IMG/VR virus record: IMGVR_UViG_3300021964_000209
Span: 1-36,273 of that record
Source: a virus
Direction: 5' to 3' (one strand)
Length of the DNA: 36,273 nt
Shown here: one piece after another, positions 3,043 through 23,789 of the stretch
Position numbering within the stretch: position 1 is the stretch's first letter
Layout of the letters: the number at the start of each line of letters is the position of its first letter
The notes under the pieces: model-generated
What the model was told of the DNA's origin: nothing
Seen by the model: the letters and a program-made list of their open reading frames with translations, nothing else
The model's database searches: none
Position numbers and translations under genes: made by a program

Positions 3043-3216
3043 ATGAAAACCGCTTACCTCGCATCAATTCTCATTGCACTCATAGTGGCTCAAATCATAC
3101 CACTTGCAAGTGAAGAATTTGGATCAGGAGCAGCTAGAACAATTACTAGAGCTAAAAATAACGTAGACGTTGAATCTAAGACCCAACAAGTTTTTGAGAT
3201 TTCTTTGTTACCTTAG
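3043..3216 (+). CDS. Small exported or single-pass membrane protein, late expressed
   Basis: A 57-residue frame on the strand opposite to nearly all other genes. The N-terminus is one Lys followed by a hydrophobic stretch of about 18 residues (AYLASILIALIVAQIIPL), then ASEEFGSG and a polar, basic tail. This fits a signal peptide or a single membrane span. Support for a real gene comes from AAAAGGAA placed about seven bases before the ATG and an exact TATAAATA box 41 bases before it. Its last 41 bases overlap the 3' end of the convergent deformylase gene. I do not recognise the family. Late timing plus a membrane segment would suit a lysis accessory or a membrane-modifying protein, but nothing in the sequence proves either. 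Confidence 0.7.
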   Translation: MKTAYLASILIALIVAQIIPLASEEFGSGAARTITRAKNNVDVESKTQQVFEISLLP

Positions 3217-3694
3217 ACAATCGTTTTTTAGCCATGTCAAGTTTTAATTTACTGACATGATTGGTGAAGTTCGTACCTTCCATATGATCATATTCATGTT
3301 GGAAGATTCGGGCTTCTAAACCAAACATTTGAACTTCGTTCAACTCACCATTCTCATCTTCATATGAGCAGGCTATATCTTTTGACCTTCGAACTTTTAT
3401 CCATAAGCCAGGATATGTCAAACACCCCTCGTCCATGAGAGACTTGTCTTTGCTGTATGATATAATCTTAGGATTAAAACAACCAATGATTTCTTTTTGT
3501 TTAATATCAGAGTACATAACAAACGCACGTTCCATAATACCACATTGATTTGCAGATAGACCAACACCGAAAGAAGATTGCATTGTTTCAATTAAATTTT
3601 CTTTCAGTTCGTTCCTGTCTAAACCCTCACTACATTTTTCAATAGGAACGCTTAGAATAGGATTTGTGTTTTCAATTAGTTTATATACTGACAT
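3176..3694 (-). CDS. def: Peptide deformylase
   Basis: Removes the formyl group from the N-terminal methionine of new proteins in the cytoplasm. All three family motifs are present in the 172-residue protein: GVGLSANQ (43-50), EGCLT with the metal-ligand Cys91, and QHEYDH with His133, catalytic Glu134 and His137. I chose ATG at 3694 (MSVYKLIE) because AGGAA lies about nine bases before it; an upstream start inside gp46 is less likely. The first 14 bases overlap the end of gp46, so the two are translationally linked. Deformylases are known in marine T4-like phages, where they are thought to support host or phage protein turnover during infection. The Thr in EGCLT replaces the more usual Ser. 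Confidence 0.93.
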   Translation of the reverse strand: MSVYKLIENTNPILSVPIEKCSEGLDRNELKENLIETMQSSFGVGLSANQCGIMERAFVMYSDIKQKEIIGCFNPKIISYSKDKSLMDEGCLTYPGLWIKVRRSKDIACSYEDENGELNEVQMFGLEARIFQHEYDHMEGTNFTNHVSKLKLDMAKKRLSKVTKKSQKLVGS

Positions 3695-5390
3695 GACTAA
3701 AGTTCCTATTTTTTTCAAACTTGATTGTACTTCTAAATTTATCAACCAGTATGTCTTGCTTGTGACTAATCACAAACACATTCTCATCACCTAATGTATT
3801 CAGAATTTTTAGAAACTCATCTGTTCCTGTTCCATCAAGTGAGCTGTCGAATATCTCATCTAGAATAAGTAGATTGCAATTTGTTGAGTTTTTCATCTTT
3901 GCAATTGCTCTCCAAGTAAAGAGTAGTGCAAGATCAATACGCATCTTCTCACCTTCACTAAATGATGCGTAGGTAAACTCATCACGATAACGTGACTTTA
4001 TAGTTTCGTCAAAGTTTTCATTCAACGTGAAGTTTACATAAAACTCCATTGATGTTAGATAGGTATTGATTAATTTATTCATCACAGGCAAATACTGTTT
4101 GATAATCTTGGTCTTGATACCAGTGTCCGTCAACATATTTCTTGAAGCTTCACTATATATCTGTTCTTCTCGCAACTTTGATTTTTGCATATCCAAACCA
4201 GATAAAGTTTTCTTTAAATCATTTAACTTATCGTGATCAGTATTATTAACTTCACCAGTATTCAGTTGGTCAATCTCTGATTGCAATGTAGCATTAAATT
4301 TTTCAAGTTGGATAAGAGAACTATTTTCTTTTGCAATATGAACTTCGTTGTCTCGTACTTTAGCACCAATAACATTAATTTCTTTCTGTCGTTCCAAAAC
4401 TTTTTCTAATTCATCTTTTAGTTCTTTCATTCCAGAACTAACTTTGTCTGCTTCACCTTTCTTTTTATCAATCATAGATGATTTAAAAACTTCATCAATA
4501 TGTTGTTGACAGGTTGGGCAATCTTCATTGCTTTCAAAAAATCCAATAAGTCTGGTATGTGTTCTATGTTTTTCTTTTAATTGTGATTGAATATCTTTTA
4601 ACTTGCTATGTTTTGTGTTTATCTTATCACTGTCAGTAATTTGAGCAAGAAGTTCCTGATTGTTTTGAGTGTAAAATTTAATATCAGAATTCTTTTTAAA
4701 TATTTCTTCTTCATTGTTACTCATTAAAGAAGTCTTTTCTTTTATAAGCTTTTCTTTGTGCATAAACATTTCATCAATATATTTTTCTTGAAGAGTAATT
4801 TTTTCTTCTGTCAAATTATATTGATAATCTATATCACGAATATCATCAGAAATAGTTTTAAGTTTTTGTTTGAGAAGCATATTCATCAAAGAGAAAATTT
4901 GAATGTCAAGAATTTCTTCAACAACCTCTCGGCGGTGTCTAGCTTTTAACTGCATAAAAGGAATAAAGGTAGATGAACCTAGAATAACAACTTGTGTAAA
5001 ACTGCGATAGTTTAGTTTAAGAATTTGTTGTTCAAGATACTTTTGATAGTCTCTCGCATTTGCATCTTGATTGTACATTTTGTCGTTGATGTAAATCTCA
5101 AACACGTTAGGCTTGATACCACGAACAACTTTCACTTTTTTAGAACCAATTCTAAATTCAACTTCTACTAATCCACCAGTACCATTGACAGAGTTTAACA
5201 GCTGTCCCTTGTTGATGTTGCGAAATGGTTTACCAAATAAACCAAAACACAGTGCATCAAGAATAGTAGATTTACCAGAACCATTCTCACCAATAATTAA
5301 TGTGGTAGAATTCCTATCTAACTGTATCTCGGTAAAGTTATTGCCAGTTGACAGGAAGTTTTTCCACTTCACAGTCTCAAAGTGTATCAT
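3681..5390 (-). CDS. gp46: gp46-like recombination endonuclease subunit (SbcC/Rad50 family)
   Basis: A 569-residue SMC-type ATPase that, with gp47, trims DNA ends for recombination-dependent replication and helps degrade host DNA. Walker A GENGSGKST is at 34-42. Long coiled-coil arms surround the zinc hook CPTC (Cys291, Cys294). The ABC signature SEGEK begins at 478, and Walker B LLILDE ends with Asp511-Glu512. The length is close to T4 gp46 (about 560 residues). It lies four bases after the small gene at 5394-5612, which in turn follows gp47, so the subunits are made from one transcript. Confidence 0.95.
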   Translation of the reverse strand: MIHFETVKWKNFLSTGNNFTEIQLDRNSTTLIIGENGSGKSTILDALCFGLFGKPFRNINKGQLLNSVNGTGGLVEVEFRIGSKKVKVVRGIKPNVFEIYINDKMYNQDANARDYQKYLEQQILKLNYRSFTQVVILGSSTFIPFMQLKARHRREVVEEILDIQIFSLMNMLLKQKLKTISDDIRDIDYQYNLTEEKITLQEKYIDEMFMHKEKLIKEKTSLMSNNEEEIFKKNSDIKFYTQNNQELLAQITDSDKINTKHSKLKDIQSQLKEKHRTHTRLIGFFESNEDCPTCQQHIDEVFKSSMIDKKKGEADKVSSGMKELKDELEKVLERQKEINVIGAKVRDNEVHIAKENSSLIQLEKFNATLQSEIDQLNTGEVNNTDHDKLNDLKKTLSGLDMQKSKLREEQIYSEASRNMLTDTGIKTKIIKQYLPVMNKLINTYLTSMEFYVNFTLNENFDETIKSRYRDEFTYASFSEGEKMRIDLALLFTWRAIAKMKNSTNCNLLILDEIFDSSLDGTGTDEFLKILNTLGDENVFVISHKQDILVDKFRSTIKFEKNRNFSHVSI

Positions 5391-8283: not shown

Positions 8284-9759
8284 CTACAATTTTACCTTAC
8301 TGATATGATAATCAAATTGTTGTTCGTTATACAATGATATCCTTTCAGAAAAATGATTTAACGTAAAATTACGCTTATTGTTGTGTGAAATGTCGTCTGC
8401 AATATCATATATTAAAACGGAAACTTTATTGTCGGTCTTACGCAGTCCACGGCCAAGGCTTTGGAGCACTCTAATCCTACTTTTGCTTGGGGAACTGAAC
8501 ACGATATTGTTGATATTCCTAATATTAATACCAGTGCTAAACGTGCCGTAACTTGCAAGTATAACTGATTTCTTTTCATTTTCTACAACTCCTCTTATTT
8601 CTTCTCTTTCTGATGTGTCTGTTCCACCATAGACAAAAAATGTTTTTCTATCTGTAATTGTTTCTTCTACTTGTTCGTATAATGGTTTTCCATGTTTCTC
8701 AACTAACTGAAATAAACAAAGCGTATTACCATCTAAGTGTTGCAAAAGATTGACTATAAAGTTATTTCGTTTCTCGTTTGTAGCCAAATATTCTAGTTCT
8801 TCTGCATATGTCATTTTCTCACGAATGTTTTTATGTTTTAATAAAATACACTTAACAGTCAAGTCTGCAAGTGTTTTCTTGTCTATAAGTTCCTTAGTGG
8901 TCACTATAGTTTCAGCAGTACCAAATAGACCTTCTAATACTAAGCGATGCGTCAGCGTTCCGTCTAGGGTGCCTGTGAGTCCAAATCTATACCTACACTG
9001 GTGTAACTTAGTCATAATCCCTGTCAATGATTTAGACTTAAACATGTGTGCTTCATCACCAATTACACACCCAAATGCTTCAAAATATTTCTTAGGCAAC
9101 TTGTACAAAGATTGCCATGTTGATATCACAACATCTTTAGTTACTTTGCGATCATGACCCTGATATATCTTTTGACAGTATGTACCAGAGCTCCAACCAT
9201 AATCTTCAAAGTCAGTATACATTTGTTCTACTAATGAAGTGGTAGGAACTAGTATTAGAGTTCTTAACCCCATCATTTTGTAATAACGAACTAGTGCATA
9301 TATTATTAATGACTTACCAGAAGCAGTGGGAGAAAGCAACAAAGCGCGATGTCTGCTAACAGCGTGGTGTACGGCATCAATCTGATAGTCACGAACTCTA
9401 AGAGATTTTCCTTTTGACTTTGGTTTAAGAGATTTAACGAATCCTGAGACAACCTCTCGTTCAATATTTCTTTCATCTTCTACTCCATCTTCTAGTATAT
9501 ATTTAATTCCGTTTCTTGAACAATAGTTTTTAATATAGGATAACAACCCAACATAGATTTGTCCTGTAGCTGGTGAGAATAAACGTATCTTACCATCCCA
9601 CATACGATTTTTAAACTGAGGCATAAACTTAGCGCCAGGCACTTCAAACGTAAAAAACTGTGTAAGTTCTTGTGTTGTTGATGGGTCTAGGTCATCTAAA
9701 ACTAAATGCACTTCGTTCTTTTTAGATATACGCATTTTGTAAAGTACCCTGTTTACCAT
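8284..9759 (-). CDS. uvsW: UvsW-like DNA/RNA helicase
   Basis: A 491-residue superfamily 2 helicase. In T4 UvsW unwinds R-loops and branched recombination intermediates and helps switch replication from origins to recombination. The N-terminal domain (FFTFEV, then NRMWDGKIRLF) is the UvsW-specific DNA-binding part. Helicase motifs follow: Walker A SPTASGKS (143-150), motif II DEAH (235-238), motif III GLTGT near 257, and motif VI QSLGRGLRK near 434. The ATG at 9759 has AAGAGG about six bases upstream. Its first 38 bases overlap the end of the preceding oxygenase gene. Confidence 0.95.
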   Translation of the reverse strand: MVNRVLYKMRISKKNEVHLVLDDLDPSTTQELTQFFTFEVPGAKFMPQFKNRMWDGKIRLFSPATGQIYVGLLSYIKNYCSRNGIKYILEDGVEDERNIEREVVSGFVKSLKPKSKGKSLRVRDYQIDAVHHAVSRHRALLLSPTASGKSLIIYALVRYYKMMGLRTLILVPTTSLVEQMYTDFEDYGWSSGTYCQKIYQGHDRKVTKDVVISTWQSLYKLPKKYFEAFGCVIGDEAHMFKSKSLTGIMTKLHQCRYRFGLTGTLDGTLTHRLVLEGLFGTAETIVTTKELIDKKTLADLTVKCILLKHKNIREKMTYAEELEYLATNEKRNNFIVNLLQHLDGNTLCLFQLVEKHGKPLYEQVEETITDRKTFFVYGGTDTSEREEIRGVVENEKKSVILASYGTFSTGINIRNINNIVFSSPSKSRIRVLQSLGRGLRKTDNKVSVLIYDIADDISHNNKRNFTLNHFSERISLYNEQQFDYHISKVKL

Positions 9760-10300
9760 AGTTGCCTCTTAATAGTATATTCCATGAGACACTTATACGT
9801 TGTTCTTGAGGCGACGGCACCCAATGTTGCAACCATGATGGAAAAATTAATCCAGACCCCTCAATAGAATCAAACCTAACCATACTGGAATTGTATTGGT
9901 TTGGTGTATTTCTTGGCTGCAATACGCTTGCAGATGGTCGTGGATCAAAAAATTGTATTGGTGCGGTATTATTAGATTTTAGATAATATACACCAGACAG
10001 AAAGTTATTTGAATGTGTGTGTGGAGGGTGAACATCACCACTTTGCATTTGGTTTGCCCACATGTTTGTAATTTCTATTTTATCATATTCGTATTTTAAT
10101 TTTTTTAAAATTTGAGTTGTTGATTCAATTACGCCATCAACCAAAGGTTTAAAGTTTGGTAAGAGAAACAATTGATCTTCTTCCTCTGAAAACCGCAAAT
10201 TAGTTATCATGGGTTCATGATCTATCTTCAAAGAAAAAGAATGAATTGTTGTTGGAAAACAATCAAAAGATTTTACATTAACCACGTTACTATGCTCCAC
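9722..10300 (-). CDS. 2OG-Fe(II) oxygenase (TIGR02466-like), first of three in the window
   Basis: A probable iron- and 2-oxoglutarate-dependent dioxygenase of 192 residues. Likely iron ligands are in PHTH (His94, His96) and in SWLQHWV (His159), and the following Arg168 in QRISVSWN would bind 2-oxoglutarate. This is the layout of the TIGR02466 family seen in marine phages. I chose a GTG start at 10300 (GTG GAG CAT) because AAAGGAACAAG stands directly before it; the frame stays open further upstream inside the previous gene. It overlaps the P4H-type oxygenase by 28 bases and uvsW by 38. The substrate is unknown; hydroxylation of a phage or host protein or of a nucleotide is possible. Confidence 0.85.
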   Translation of the reverse strand: MEHSNVVNVKSFDCFPTTIHSFSLKIDHEPMITNLRFSEEEDQLFLLPNFKPLVDGVIESTTQILKKLKYEYDKIEITNMWANQMQSGDVHPPHTHSNNFLSGVYYLKSNNTAPIQFFDPRPSASVLQPRNTPNQYNSSMVRFDSIEGSGLIFPSWLQHWVPSPQEQRISVSWNILLRGNYGKQGTLQNAYI

Positions 10301-10815
10301 CTTGTTCCTTTTGTAACTGTTTTTGCTTCGTGAGGAAACATAAAGTTGGATGGAAATATAATTGCAGAACCCTTGGCTGGGCAAAACTTTTTATTTGCTA
10401 CATAAAACTCTCCACCTTCATAATTATCATTAAGATATAATAATGCAGATACTTGTGGATAGCCGTAATGTTGACCATGACTATGATGAATGTTGTCAAC
10501 GTGTTTAGACATAAACCCGCCCTTACCATACCGATTAATACGAAAGTCTGTGGTATGTTTAACTGCAAACAATTCAAAGTCAGATTTGTAATTTACTATC
10601 ACGTTTTCAAAACACTCTTTAATATCTTGATAGAATACATTGTTTTTTCGTATCCAATACTCTAACATCTTAACACGTTCTTCTTTTATAACTCGCCCAC
10701 TATCGTGTGTGGAGTATGCAGAAGGCTCATATGGAAAATCGTGTCCAGTTAAATCATTACATAAACTTTCTGAGACAATACCTTCATAATATTTTATATA
10801 ACCATCTACATTCAT
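10273..10815 (-). CDS. 2OG-Fe(II) oxygenase (prolyl-4-hydroxylase-like), second of three
   Basis: A 180-residue dioxygenase of the P4H type. The iron-binding HxD is His105/Asp107 in KHVDN, the distal His is His162 in FPHEA, and Arg172 in GTRWSIVTWL is the usual 2-oxoglutarate anchor. The core YPQVSALLYLNDNYEGGEF is typical of the family's double-stranded beta-helix. The ATG overlaps the uvsY stop by one base (TAATG), so translation is coupled. The substrate is unknown. Such enzymes are frequent in marine T4-like phages. Confidence 0.9.
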   Translation of the reverse strand: MNVDGYIKYYEGIVSESLCNDLTGHDFPYEPSAYSTHDSGRVIKEERVKMLEYWIRKNNVFYQDIKECFENVIVNYKSDFELFAVKHTTDFRINRYGKGGFMSKHVDNIHHSHGQHYGYPQVSALLYLNDNYEGGEFYVANKKFCPAKGSAIIFPSNFMFPHEAKTVTKGTRWSIVTWLM

Positions 10816-11246
10816 TACATCATTCCAGCTTCAAACTTTCTCCACTCTATTGCGTTTTTAATATCCCACCCACGATTATCAATGGACTTGATTACACCAT
10901 CAATATATTTTACAACAATTTCTAGATAACCAATTTTGTTCATCAGTTCAATTATATCTTCGTCAGAAGTGATGTACATCGCAAGGTCACTTTTAAGAAC
11001 CTTTAAGTCAAATGGTTTAGATGCATAAACTTTTGCGTCAGCTTTACCACCATAGTATTCCCATTTCTGACGATACAAACGCTGATAGTCTCCATTGTGT
11101 TTTTGCAACAACAATTGAAACTTTGACCTGTGGTCAAGGTATTTTGATTTTATTTTTTGATTAGTAAGGGATTCAGACGCTAAGTCCTCTTGATTAGTAA
11201 TCACAAGATCGTTTCTAGCTTCTTCTTTCAATTGGTCTAAATTCAT
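10815..11246 (-). CDS. uvsY: UvsY-like recombination mediator
   Basis: A 143-residue protein, close to T4 UvsY (137), which loads UvsX recombinase on single-stranded DNA coated with gp32. The best match to T4 UvsY as I remember it is the C-terminus: IDNRGWDIKNAIEWRKFEAG here against an IKSRGF...FEAGK ending there. A central WEYYGGKADAKVY block matches the YYSG-D region. ATG at 11246 is chosen over TTG at 11264; AAGAGAA lies about nine bases before it. It heads a chain of overlapping genes ending with uvsW, so mediator and helicase are made together. The leader is long and may be structured. Confidence 0.88.
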   Translation of the reverse strand: MNLDQLKEEARNDLVITNQEDLASESLTNQKIKSKYLDHRSKFQLLLQKHNGDYQRLYRQKWEYYGGKADAKVYASKPFDLKVLKSDLAMYITSDEDIIELMNKIGYLEIVVKYIDGVIKSIDNRGWDIKNAIEWRKFEAGMM

Positions 11247-11268
11247 TATATTATTTCTCTTCAAAAAT

Positions 11269-11359: not shown

Positions 11360-11367
11360 TATTTATA
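11360..11367 (-). promoter_or_regulatory. T4-type late promoter box before uvsY
   Basis: An exact TATAAATA on the minus strand, overlapping the stop codon of the gp3-like gene. The transcript would begin near 11354 and have a leader of about 108 bases before uvsY. Confidence 0.6.
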
Positions 11368-11953
11368 AAGTTTTTACTTCGTATATTTTGTACGCAAACT
11401 CAGCGCTTACAATTAAATTATCAACATCAGTTGCAGATTGTGTATAATCTAACGCACCCAATGATATTGGAAAAATATCTTCAAAACTAATCTCTACGAT
11501 AGGATTATTTTTATTAGACAATATCATAAGGTTTGCATCAGAATACATTGACTTGTCTGGCGTTGCATTTCCTACATCTCCAATATCTGAACTGGTTGAT
11601 CTTTGACTTGCAGGCGTAGTTGATGTTACATCTCTATGTGTTGTAAATTGGCCCCTGTTCTTAGGAAATCCAATCCCCGTTATCCAATTATGTAAAGATA
11701 GATAGTTTTCTAGATACTCATCTACAATAAAAGATATTGAAAGATTTTCATATTCAAGTTTATCTCCCATTGTAGGTATATTTTTAAATGGTGTATTTAA
11801 AATTGCTGGCGTGCCAGATATGCCTGGCACGTTAGCACTAACAGTAAAAAATTCAACTTTAGGAAGCTGAAGTATACCAAACTTAAACTGAGTTGGACTT
11901 GCGTAGTCTAACTTGTCTGGTTGTCTATCTAGTGGGGATTGAGATGTTGCCAT
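11363..11953 (-). CDS. gp3: Tail-tube-fold protein, probably gp3-like tail terminator
   Basis: A 196-residue protein with the tail-tube protein pattern: FFTVSANVPGISG (35-47), PFKNIPTMGDKLEYENL (55-71), then ISFIVDEYLENYLSLHNWITG. It ends with a YKIYEV strand. T4 gp3, gp19 and gp54 share this fold. A separate gp19 lies at 18370-18903, and in marine T4-like phages gp3 stands between gp23 and uvsY, so gp3 (caps the tail tube and stabilises the sheath) is the best reading; gp54 is the main alternative. The ATG at 11953 closely follows the PqqA gene, whose stop is two bases upstream, so the two share the late promoter at 12058-12065. I see no strong ribosome site of its own, which suggests coupled translation. 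Confidence 0.65.
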   Translation of the reverse strand: MATSQSPLDRQPDKLDYASPTQFKFGILQLPKVEFFTVSANVPGISGTPAILNTPFKNIPTMGDKLEYENLSISFIVDEYLENYLSLHNWITGIGFPKNRGQFTTHRDVTSTTPASQRSTSSDIGDVGNATPDKSMYSDANLMILSNKNNPIVEISFEDIFPISLGALDYTQSATDVDNLIVSAEFAYKIYEVKTL

Positions 11954-11955
11954 AG

Positions 11956-12030
11956 TTAACGATTGTGAATATACATTGTTACTTCAAATCCAAATCTAAC
12001 ATCTTGATAAGTTGGTTTTGTCCATTGCAT
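11956..12030 (-). CDS. pqqA: PqqA, precursor peptide of pyrroloquinoline quinone
   Basis: A 24-codon gene encoding a peptide that begins MQWTKP, has GFEVTMY at residues 14-20 and ends HNR. This is the PqqA signature. Glu16 and Tyr20, spaced E-x-x-x-Y, are the two residues joined by the radical SAM enzyme PqqE (with the chaperone PqqD) and turned into PQQ. Length and flanks match bacterial PqqA; from memory, the Acinetobacter peptide is also 24 residues, begins MQWTKP and has GFEVTMY. The gene has a strong ribosome site (AAGGAGAGG) five bases before the ATG and an exact TATAAATA late-promoter box 28 bases upstream. The gp3-like gene follows two bases after the stop. No pqqB, C, D, E or F gene is seen in the window, so the host would have to supply the maturation enzymes. 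Confidence 0.88.
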
Positions 12031-12057
12031 AATACCTCTCCTTATTAATACTACTAC

Positions 12058-12065
12058 TATTTATA
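12058..12065 (-). promoter_or_regulatory. T4-type late promoter box for pqqA and the gp3-like gene
   Basis: An exact TATAAATA on the minus strand. The transcript would start near 12052, leaving a leader of about 22 bases that includes AAGGAGAGG. It directly abuts the A/T tract of the terminator at 12068-12099. Confidence 0.7.
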
Positions 12066-12067
12066 AC

Positions 12068-12099
12068 AAAAAAAAGGGGGAACATTAATGTTCCCCCTT
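12068..12099 (-). terminator. Rho-independent terminator of the winged-helix gene
   Basis: A perfect 26-base palindrome (12074-12099) with a GGGGGAA/TTCCCCC core, followed on the minus strand by eight T residues. It ends the winged-helix gene and isolates it from pqqA/gp3. Confidence 0.9.
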
Positions 12100-12119
12100 C
12101 GTACCATACTACAATGGTG

Positions 12120-12377
12120 TTATGCAGAACGTAATGCCTGATAACCAGCTGCGATCACTGAACGAGGTGCAGTACCTAAACGATACTTGTTGTAAGTTTC
12201 CCCATCAAATGAACTCACTCGCTTGTTGAGAAATATAGGATATCCCTCAGTGCGTAGTTTGCTCATCACTGCTCGAACATTCTTTACACCATATCGTGAT
12301 GTAATTTGTTTTGCAGTAAGTTCTGCTCCGCCCATTAGTGCGTTAAGAACCTTCTCAGTTTTAGTAATAGTAGTCAT
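12120..12377 (-). CDS. Small winged-helix/HTH DNA-binding protein next to gp23
   Basis: An 85-residue basic protein. KTEKVLNALMGGAELTAKQI and SRYGVKNVRAVMSKLRTEGY form a helix-turn-helix with a recognition helix at about 30-43, and IFLNKRV to NKYRLG would form the wing. This looks like a transcription regulator or DNA-binding accessory protein. I chose ATG at 12377 because AAGGAG lies about ten bases before it; an in-frame ATG at 12398 is possible. The gene has its own sigma-70-type promoter, a hairpin at the mRNA's 5' end, and a strong terminator. It is therefore a separate transcription unit inserted between the capsid gene and the tail gene. Small genes of this type occur next to gp23 in other marine T4-like phages; the regulated target is unknown. 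Confidence 0.82.
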   Translation of the reverse strand: MTTITKTEKVLNALMGGAELTAKQITSRYGVKNVRAVMSKLRTEGYPIFLNKRVSSFDGETYNKYRLGTAPRSVIAAGYQALRSA

Positions 12378-12406
12378 TATATAATTTCTCCTTGTCATGA
12401 CATTAA

Positions 12407-12548: not shown

Positions 12549-13898
12549 TTACATAAGGTTTGTGACTTTAACCCTTCGATACCAAGCATTGGTGTTTGCA
12601 TCAAGAGAAGCATCAGTGTTAACTGTGTCTCCAGCAGCAACTGCACCAGCAGCAGCGAATGGATTAGCTGCAAGACCATAACGTGTCTTGAAACCAATCT
12701 TAGGTTGGAAAGAACTTTCACCAACCGCACGAACCATCTGTAGTGGAACGTATGGGCAGTAGAAGAATCCAGCGTCATAAGGTGAAGTACCCTTGTAACC
12801 AACAACATAGTACTGCGATGCAGCTACGTTAGCAGCATATGGATCAACATATACTTTGTAACGTCCGTTCATAACACCAGCGAATGTGGTAGTTGTGTCG
12901 TCTACGTTTAGGTTGTTAGATAGAGCAGGAGTGTAATCAAGTACACCTGCCATCTGAAGTGCAGAAGCAACATCAGCTGAACAGATAATCATGTTACCTT
13001 TCCCTCTACGAGTCTGTTGACCAATCGCATTGGCATCACGTTCGATTGCGAACATTAAACCTTTGAATTTCTCAACTGACCAACGACCATTTGAATCTGT
13101 ATCAAGGTCGAATATACCAGCAGTAGTTGTGTTAACTTGAGCACCCTTAACCGCAGTTACATACAACGAGCGAATAACTTCTCGGTTGATTTCTGCGAGG
13201 ATTTCAGAACTTAAAATGTTAGAAAGTTCTGTCTCTGCGTCAAGACCATGAATTGCTTTAAGGTCTTGTGCGAGTTCCATTGTGTACTCAGCTTTTAACG
13301 CACGACTAACAGCAGTCACAGTTGACTTCTCGATTGAGAATGCCATCTGAGCAAATCCGTTGTCAGAACTGTCACCTAATGCTTCTGCCTGAGCAGTTGT
13401 CATACCTGTTGCACTTGTGTAAGTACCAGCTGACGGACTGTCGTTAAGAACAGCAGGGTTAGTTTCTGTTGATCCAACATCACCACCACCGATATCACCA
13501 GCGGAGTTCTGGTTAGATGCACCAGTTTGGCCAGGCAATGCCTCGTCAACAAGTGCTTCTGCACCATCTTGTGAAAGGAAAGATGAACGCATTGCAAAGA
13601 TAAGACCAGTAGGCCCTGTCATTGGTTGCACACCACATACGTCATATGCAATCAAGTTAGGCATTGCACGCCGTACGAGTGATATTAAAATTGGATCCCA
13701 TGTATCGAATTGTCCACCACCAGTACTGTTGACTGGCGCTGTTTCTCCGAGGAAACCTCTATCTTCTTTTAAAGCTTTTTCTTGGTTCTCTAAGATGAGA
13801 GTAGTAACTGCCCGCTTATAAGGATCGGCGATCTCAGGAAGATCGGGATGCTCTAGGACTGGCTGCCACTTTTCTTGTAGATGTTCTGTCTGAAACAT
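12549..13898 (-). CDS. gp23: Major capsid protein gp23
   Basis: A 449-residue protein that forms the hexamers of the head. It opens with MFQTEHLQEKWQPVLEH and has GGGQFDTWDPILISLVRRAMPNLIAYDVCGVQPM, the conserved gp23 region. A prohead protease site fits LGE52|T53 in the stretch RGFLGETAP, so the mature protein would begin at Thr53, as T4 gp23 is trimmed by gp21. AAGGAGAAACAA precedes the ATG. A terminator follows. I see no consensus late box directly before it, so it may depend on the promoters before gp22. No gp24-like vertex gene is present, as in other marine T4-like phages. Confidence 0.97.
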   Translation of the reverse strand: MFQTEHLQEKWQPVLEHPDLPEIADPYKRAVTTLILENQEKALKEDRGFLGETAPVNSTGGGQFDTWDPILISLVRRAMPNLIAYDVCGVQPMTGPTGLIFAMRSSFLSQDGAEALVDEALPGQTGASNQNSAGDIGGGDVGSTETNPAVLNDSPSAGTYTSATGMTTAQAEALGDSSDNGFAQMAFSIEKSTVTAVSRALKAEYTMELAQDLKAIHGLDAETELSNILSSEILAEINREVIRSLYVTAVKGAQVNTTTAGIFDLDTDSNGRWSVEKFKGLMFAIERDANAIGQQTRRGKGNMIICSADVASALQMAGVLDYTPALSNNLNVDDTTTTFAGVMNGRYKVYVDPYAANVAASQYYVVGYKGTSPYDAGFFYCPYVPLQMVRAVGESSFQPKIGFKTRYGLAANPFAAAGAVAAGDTVNTDASLDANTNAWYRRVKVTNLM

Positions 13899-23183: not shown

Positions 23184-23789
23184 TTATCTATTTCCATGTA
23201 TTAGAAAGTTACATGCTATACTTATTCTTGTTGTGTTTTTGGTGCTTGGAGCAACACCATGTTCTAACCAACTTGGAAACAATATAACCTCTCCAGCATT
23301 AAAAGGTCTTTTACCAATTACATTACTATAAGGTTTTTTCAAAAGTCCATGAGATGCGTCCATAGCTTCTTGTATTCGTGGGTCTTTAAGATATAAAATT
23401 GCATCATCTGTTGGTGTTACATAATATACTGCTGACCAAGAAGCTTCTTCGTGAATGTGTGGCATGGTACACTGACCTTCTCTTGCAATGTTTGCCCAAC
23501 TATTAATTAAACTTATGTTTGCATCGTCAATGTAAATTTCACTTAAAATTTTATTGACACTAGCGAGCATTTTTTTTCTTAATGATTCAAGACTTGTAGC
23601 ATAAGAGTCAACTCCTCCAAGTAAAGATTTATTGCTTTGCCAACCACCACCTTGCACTGGATTAAATTGAAATCCCCAACCTCGTTTTTCTCTTTCTAAG
23701 ATTTCACTTTTGATTGATTCATTATCTAAGTTTTCTAGTTTGTAATTAAAAATTGTGGTAGGCCACAATTGTTGTCTTTCTACATTCAT
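23184..23789 (-). CDS. 2OG-Fe(II) oxygenase (TIGR02466-like), third of three
   Basis: A 201-residue dioxygenase. Likely ligands are His111 and His113 in MPHIHEEASWSAVYYV, His177 in SWLEHGV and Arg188 in TTRISIACNF. It is of the same type as the protein at 9722-10300, but clearly diverged. It lies between the two terminase genes gp16 and gp17, within a transcript for DNA packaging. The ATG has AGGATTATATT upstream. The substrate is unknown. Its position suggests late expression, perhaps to hydroxylate a virion or host protein. Confidence 0.85.
   Translation of the reverse strand: MNVERQQLWPTTIFNYKLENLDNESIKSEILEREKRGWGFQFNPVQGGGWQSNKSLLGGVDSYATSLESLRKKMLASVNKILSEIYIDDANISLINSWANIAREGQCTMPHIHEEASWSAVYYVTPTDDAILYLKDPRIQEAMDASHGLLKKPYSNVIGKRPFNAGEVILFPSWLEHGVAPSTKNTTRISIACNFLIHGNR

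Follow-up and report, generated by a model that had tools for sequence, protein, structure and literature searches.

The pqqA locus of the window

The window, by which we mean the whole stretch of 36,273 nt analysed here, is a 36-kb genome fragment of a T4-like phage. Its gp23 is 74% identical to those of Pelagibacter phage Mosig and methylophage Melnitz, and its gene order is T4-like. The features around pqqA, all on the minus strand, are as follows.

12549..13898, minus strand: gp23, major capsid protein (74% to Mosig and Melnitz), with the pqqA slot just downstream
12120..12398, minus strand: small HTH_39-like gene between gp23 and pqqA, within the variable slot (17.8 bits, below cut-off)
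12073..12100, minus strand: intrinsic terminator hairpin with a 12-bp stem and a T run, upstream of the promoter, ending the preceding transcript
12057..12065, minus strand: T4-type late promoter box TATAAATAG, kept in relatives and immediately upstream of the tail gene in the clade with the empty site
12035..12043, minus strand: ribosome-binding site AAGGAGAGG of pqqA, with an equivalent AGGAG in all pqqA-bearing relatives at the site
11956..12030, minus strand: pqqA, 24-residue PQQ precursor peptide with Glu16 and Tyr20 (PF08042, TIGR02107, conservation in relatives)
11363..11953, minus strand: gp3-like tail completion/sheath stabiliser gene, 2 nt after the pqqA stop
10815..11264, minus strand: uvsY, flank of the slot (PF11056, 111 bits)

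The pqqA reading frame runs from the ATG at 12030 down to the TAA ending at 11956 and encodes 24 residues. The initial annotation had read this peptide as PqqA, preceded by a strong ribosome site and an exact late-promoter box, and each of these readings holds. The peptide scores 42.5 bits with Pfam PF08042 (GA cut-off 21.1) and 43.8 bits with NCBIfam TIGR02107 (cut-off 20), i.e. about twice the cut-off of both curated models, with full or near-full coverage of the profile core. Glu16 and Tyr20 stand exactly where they had been placed, in E-x-x-x-Y spacing, and the length of 24 residues, with a start codon and the ribosome site AAGGAGAGG (12043–12035), falls in the PqqA range of about 22–24 and up to about 29 residues. 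The window contains a single match to the PqqA motif, and 300 Markov shuffles of the window yielded none. Since the model scores are high and the motif is absent from the shuffles, the frame is not a chance one, and by its sequence the ORF is a genuine pqqA gene. It resembles the bacterial PqqA family (PF08042, TIGR02107) in its length, W-x-x-P, R-[FL]-G-F-E-V-T-M-Y, Glu16/Tyr20, and strong scores, but differs in that the phage copy is solo, lies under a T4-type late promoter, is joined to a tail-gene operon, and has no pqqB–E nearby. No family in PHROGs matches the 24-residue phage PqqA.

The late promoter box TATAAATAG occupies 12065–12057, and the ATG of pqqA lies 26 nt downstream. The exact box occurs three times in the window, compared with about 0.6 expected by chance. 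The other minus-strand TATAAATA boxes of the window are likewise found a short distance before genes on that strand, and the reading of the box as a late promoter is therefore sound. At the other end, the pqqA stop ends at 11956 and the ATG of the gp3-like gene is at 11953, leaving a gap of 2 nt, and the gp3-like gene has no Shine-Dalgarno sequence of its own. From this layout, pqqA and the gp3-like gene probably share one transcript. Elsewhere, the window carries three 2OG-Fe(II) oxygenases (9722–10384, 10273–10815, and 23184–23789), the one after uvsY being replaced by a different member in relatives, and a peptide deformylase gene at 3176–3745 (PF01327, 124 bits).

Conservation and spread of viral pqqA

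For the site itself, 80 viral loci were collected with the gp3-like protein as bait. The gene is present in the loci whose gp3-like protein is 100%, 90–94%, or 84–85% identical (L130–L139, L147–L149, and L151), always with an AGGAG ribosome site. Loci L140–L146 (88–89% identity) have conserved flanks and no pqqA, and thus provide a natural clean empty site, in which TATAAATAG runs directly into the ATG of the tail gene. Among the compared pqqA copies, the amino acid sequence varies only at residue 22 (H/M/N) and in an optional Q2; synonymous changes are found at Thr, Asp, Ile, and Arg codons. The initial annotation had singled out the interval between gp23 and gp3/uvsY of T4-like relatives, and pqqA was indeed found there, in the same slot. 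It had also held that absence from all close relatives with conserved flanks, frame-breaking changes, or loss of Glu16/Tyr20 would speak against the gene. Most close relatives carry pqqA, and one sister clade cleanly lacks it; both residues are kept in all relatives, and no frame-breaking change was seen.

Where pqqA is missing upstream (L140–L146 and more distant relatives), the gp3-like gene starts 4–5 nt after TATAAATAG and is close to leaderless. Through pqqA, this gene gains both a ribosome site and translational coupling of its start.

In a T4-like clade at greater distance (gp23 81–82% identical), 11 contigs hold another type of PqqA at the corresponding position behind gp23, and there pqqA is closed by its own terminator. 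Locus L117 has a third PqqA type, and Melnitz carries pqqA elsewhere in its genome, away from the slot behind gp23. The differing types in the slot and the other location in Melnitz indicate that the slot has been used repeatedly and that the gene is mobile. By eye, the slot before the gp3-like gene in locus L160 (upstream of 4001) holds a putative CDP-alcohol phosphatidyltransferase gene, and the site behind gp23 can therefore be taken as a general cargo slot.

We then turned to selection on the viral peptide. The conservation of Glu and Tyr in a first scan was discounted as evidence, as its pattern fixed both residues. The test was based on two patterns that fix only the N-terminal half and end at Gly14, leaving Glu and Tyr unconstrained. 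All 14 and all 114 distinct viral sequences that they retrieved (128/128) keep Glu and Tyr and have the stop exactly 22 residues from the Trp. For the half left free by the patterns, pN/pS is 0.13 (pS 0.79, pN 0.10). Viral pqqA is under strong purifying selection and is thus kept by selection, as expected of an auxiliary metabolic gene (AMG). It is also a host-type metabolic gene in real phage genomes, flanked in the window by gp23 and the gp3-like gene and present in complete genomes of cultured phages.

A tblastn search with the 24-residue peptide against 50,697 phage records revealed unannotated pqqA in Melnitz (4 genomes, Kyanoviridae), Venkman, MEP301, MEP401/402 (Zobellviridae), P19250A, and an uncultured podovirus. 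Except for the podovirus and two records labelled Acinetobacter phage, all matches are phages of Methylophilales/Methylophilaceae. The longer of the latter two, 'Acinetobacter phage MD-2021a' (CAKLQF020000010.1), was rejected as viral evidence because it is a bacterial contig that carries the complete pqq operon. MEP431–434 and other named methylophages, whose membership in the searched collection is uncertain, gave no match. The gene had been expected to escape gene calling, and in the cultured methylophages it is either unannotated or hidden under a hypothetical ORF. In Melnitz (MZ577095.1, 3967–4072), the real pqqA is covered by the annotated CDS Melnitz1EXVC043M_151, which is placed on the wrong, opposite strand.

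In IMG/VR, one pattern gave at least 120 matches, each of those listed being a full PqqA whose start codon immediately precedes the Trp or lies a few codons upstream of it, and a gammaproteobacterial-type pattern gave 56 further matches. In total, well over 150 IMG/VR contigs carry pqqA. The alphaproteobacterial type is nearly absent from viral contigs, with two matches to one pattern. By shared proteins, 138 pqqA records fall into 14 groups, a count that includes some small singletons of unverified phage gene content and a largest group in which single linkage merges many phage types. Gammaproteobacterial- or methanotroph-type pqqA also occurs on very large viral contigs (L440, L450, and L461; records of 171–372 kb).

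PQQ pathway, hosts, and amoC neighbours

In one of its two alternatives, the initial annotation had left the chemistry to PqqB–E of the host. On the viral side, pqqE was above cut-off in none of 50 pqqA records, complete cultured genomes included, and one weak radical-SAM match was seen; the window record itself is a fragment. Judged by pqqE in these 50 records, viral pqqA is not accompanied by pqqBCDE in the same genome, which is not strictly disqualifying because methylotrophs commonly have pqqA copies that stand alone (PMC4109929). One of the 50 records, a 72-kb viral contig (L054; L410/L411), has a complete PQQ-dependent alcohol dehydrogenase in addition to pqqA. On the host side, 185 of 187 Methylophilaceae genomes carry pqqA, with a median of 3 and a maximum of 12 copies, and three copies are present even in many genomes of 1.2–1.3 Mb. 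For Methylophilaceae phages, the host hence has the pathway. Methylophilaceae have been described with 3–12 copies of pqqA versus a typically single pqqBCDEFG (PMC4109929). The viral gene is similar to this multi-copy pqqA of Methylophilaceae as an extra solo copy away from pqqBCDE, but the latter is chromosomal and host-owned. In Methylosinus trichosporium, the transcript level of pqqA is 11,857 versus 166–372 for pqqE, pqqC/D, and pqqB, a difference of about 30–80-fold (PMC3615186).

Viral PqqA is often identical to Methylophilaceae PqqA, and a form starting MWT[KT] is common to both. For the window peptide, no identical bacterial PqqA was found, the best having 18–19 identical residues. It is nearest to gammaproteobacterial forms, sharing 18 of 22 core residues with Methylophaga and 79% with two gammaproteobacterial genomes. 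The peptide, with its closer resemblance to PqqA of Methylophaga and other gammaproteobacterial types, thus lends no support to Methylophilaceae as the host of the window phage.

A full-length AmoC of betaproteobacterial (Nitrosomonas) type, with 270 residues, is encoded directly before pqqA in L134–L138 (e.g. L135:3015–3827). AmoC is also encoded in the same slot in L140–L146, the clade without pqqA (e.g. L142:3112–3924). Within the 36 kb of the window, pqqA is present and amoC is absent. The phage AmoC scores 424 bits with TIGR03078 and 391 with AmoC_BACT, over cut-off, and against PDB it scores 511–531 bits with ammonia monooxygenase chains and at most 238 with methane monooxygenase. These scores led us to reject an assignment of the gene in L134–L146 as pmoC. 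A second AmoC group, on other viral contigs (L336–L341 and L343; 80–88% to L142), has a different gene context and no pqqA in the sequenced stretch examined. The arrangement in L134–L146 matches that of St17_oxy_54, a 144-kb T4-like phage from an oxygen minimum zone with a Nitrosomonas-like amoC beside gp23 (PMC8115048): both are HTVC008M-like T4-like phages with the same slot behind gp23 and the same amoC type. In contrast, pqqA is unmentioned in that paper, and the window has pqqA without amoC.

The phage AmoC is 84% identical to AmoC of bacterial genomes with up to five amoC copies. In the family to which these genomes belong, pqqA was found in 0/125 genomes, PqqC over cut-off in 0/125, and a PQQ alcohol dehydrogenase in only 2/125. 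Weak PqqC matches of about 60 bits in this family presumably represent a related CADD-type protein. Ammonia oxidisers as PQQ makers were accordingly rejected for the sampled family. With amoC beside pqqA and 0/125 genomes having pqqA, the window clade may have a host that does not make PQQ. The explanations are an unsampled host with both systems, host switching by phages that keep a cassette for each host, or a pqqA that lies idle in some of the phages. With amoC and pqqA as neighbours, the question arises of which nitrifier or methylotroph in the sea serves as host to these abundant T4-like phages.

Proposed precursor dosage and alternative readings

The cross-link between Glu16 and Tyr20 is the known first step of PQQ synthesis (PMC10906245). 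One whole peptide is consumed per PQQ, and PqqA supply, rather than the catalytic enzymes, would therefore be what extra gene dosage lifts. We propose that phage pqqA is a precursor-dosage AMG working through PqqB–E of the host, with a probability of roughly 0.7. Precursor supply was the first of two alternatives in the initial annotation, and it appears to be the best-supported one. Specifically, a cassette of a ribosome site and 24 codons would have been inserted downstream of the late promoter and ahead of the gp3-like tail gene in a marine T4-like phage. Expression from the late promoter would yield the peptide in quantity late in infection, PqqD and PqqE of the host would cross-link its Glu16 and Tyr20, and PqqF/G, PqqB, and PqqC of the host would complete PQQ. 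The phage would thereby imitate methylotrophs, which themselves rely on multiple copies of pqqA. Additional PQQ may keep PQQ-dependent alcohol/methanol dehydrogenase charged and electrons flowing during host transcription shut-off, which would be the benefit to the phage. The most abundant transcript of OM43 is xoxF (PMC5120137). Three observations count against precursor dosage: the sister clade L140–L146 lives without pqqA, amoC is a neighbour, and no identical bacterial peptide was found.

In a different reading, the slot is a traffic point for host genes and pqqA of the window clade is left from a past or alternative host with no present benefit, e.g. where a phage alternates between an ammonia oxidiser and a methylotroph that makes PQQ. 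Near-identical phages have amoC alone, amoC with pqqA, or pqqA alone in this slot, the ammonia-oxidiser genomes lack the PQQ pathway, and the empty site of L140–L146 means that pqqA is dispensable. However, a passenger would decay quickly, whereas the frame, ribosome site, and key residues are kept at 84–100% identity with only synonymous change elsewhere, which leaves this reading unlikely. It is quite improbable that the peptide is a decoy or inhibitor that ties up PqqD/PqqE or the protease and thereby slows down the synthesis of PQQ. Its shortness and presumably strong late expression suit such a role, and PqqD binding is expected of any PqqA-like peptide, but a decoy is expected to lose Glu16 or Tyr20, and both are kept in the unbiased set of 128 sequences.

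We give very little credence to the ORF serving mainly as a leader peptide that places a ribosome site before the gp3-like gene and couples its translation. The 2-nt spacing, the tail gene's lack of its own ribosome site, and its nearly leaderless start in the empty-site clade are in line with this role; yet a leader needs no full PqqA sequence, pqqA of the distant T4-like clade is uncoupled by its terminator, and elsewhere pqqA precedes other genes. Just as little credence goes to processing by host PqqE/PqqD for a use other than PQQ, such as a modified peptide acting on the host, which could occur in hosts without pqqB/C, but viral peptides match bacterial PqqA variants residue for residue, as expected if the full pathway reads them.

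Viral PqqA has a precedent in the Lake Baikal virus population VP_266, whose PqqA was proposed to support the PQQ supply of a methylotroph (PMC7678222). That case is tied to a virus-encoded methanol dehydrogenase in one uncultured lake population, whereas pqqA of the window is solo, marine, and T4-like, and recurs in many unrelated phages. Large freshwater phages with pmoC (PMC7674155) likewise carry one small piece of a one-carbon/ammonia oxidation system, but it is an enzyme subunit and not a cofactor precursor, and no PQQ gene is mentioned there. pqqA is listed among sediment virus genes (PMC13188868), and the paper describing Melnitz makes no mention of it. Beyond these reports, the present analysis adds that pqqA recurs in phages that are unrelated and in cultured ones, that it forms a solo cassette preceded by a late promoter and followed by a tail gene, with the empty site as control, that its conservation holds in an unbiased test, and that amoC can be its neighbour.

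More tentatively, precursor dosage might be a general viral strategy, in which unrelated phages of PQQ-dependent bacteria repeatedly take the stoichiometrically consumed member and leave the enzymes, and the amoC/pqqA phages might infect an unsampled marine ammonia oxidiser or an AmoC-using PQQ maker that combines both; we consider this combination possible, at less than even odds. A gene of 24 codons is about the cheapest metabolic lever for a virus, and one that is missed by gene callers and virus protein families. As the peptide often equals that of the host, viral PqqA may serve as a host marker. That pqqA recurs across unrelated phage families, among them every cultured methylophage that the search turned up, suggests a limit set by PQQ precursor supply on methanol/alcohol oxidation during infection.
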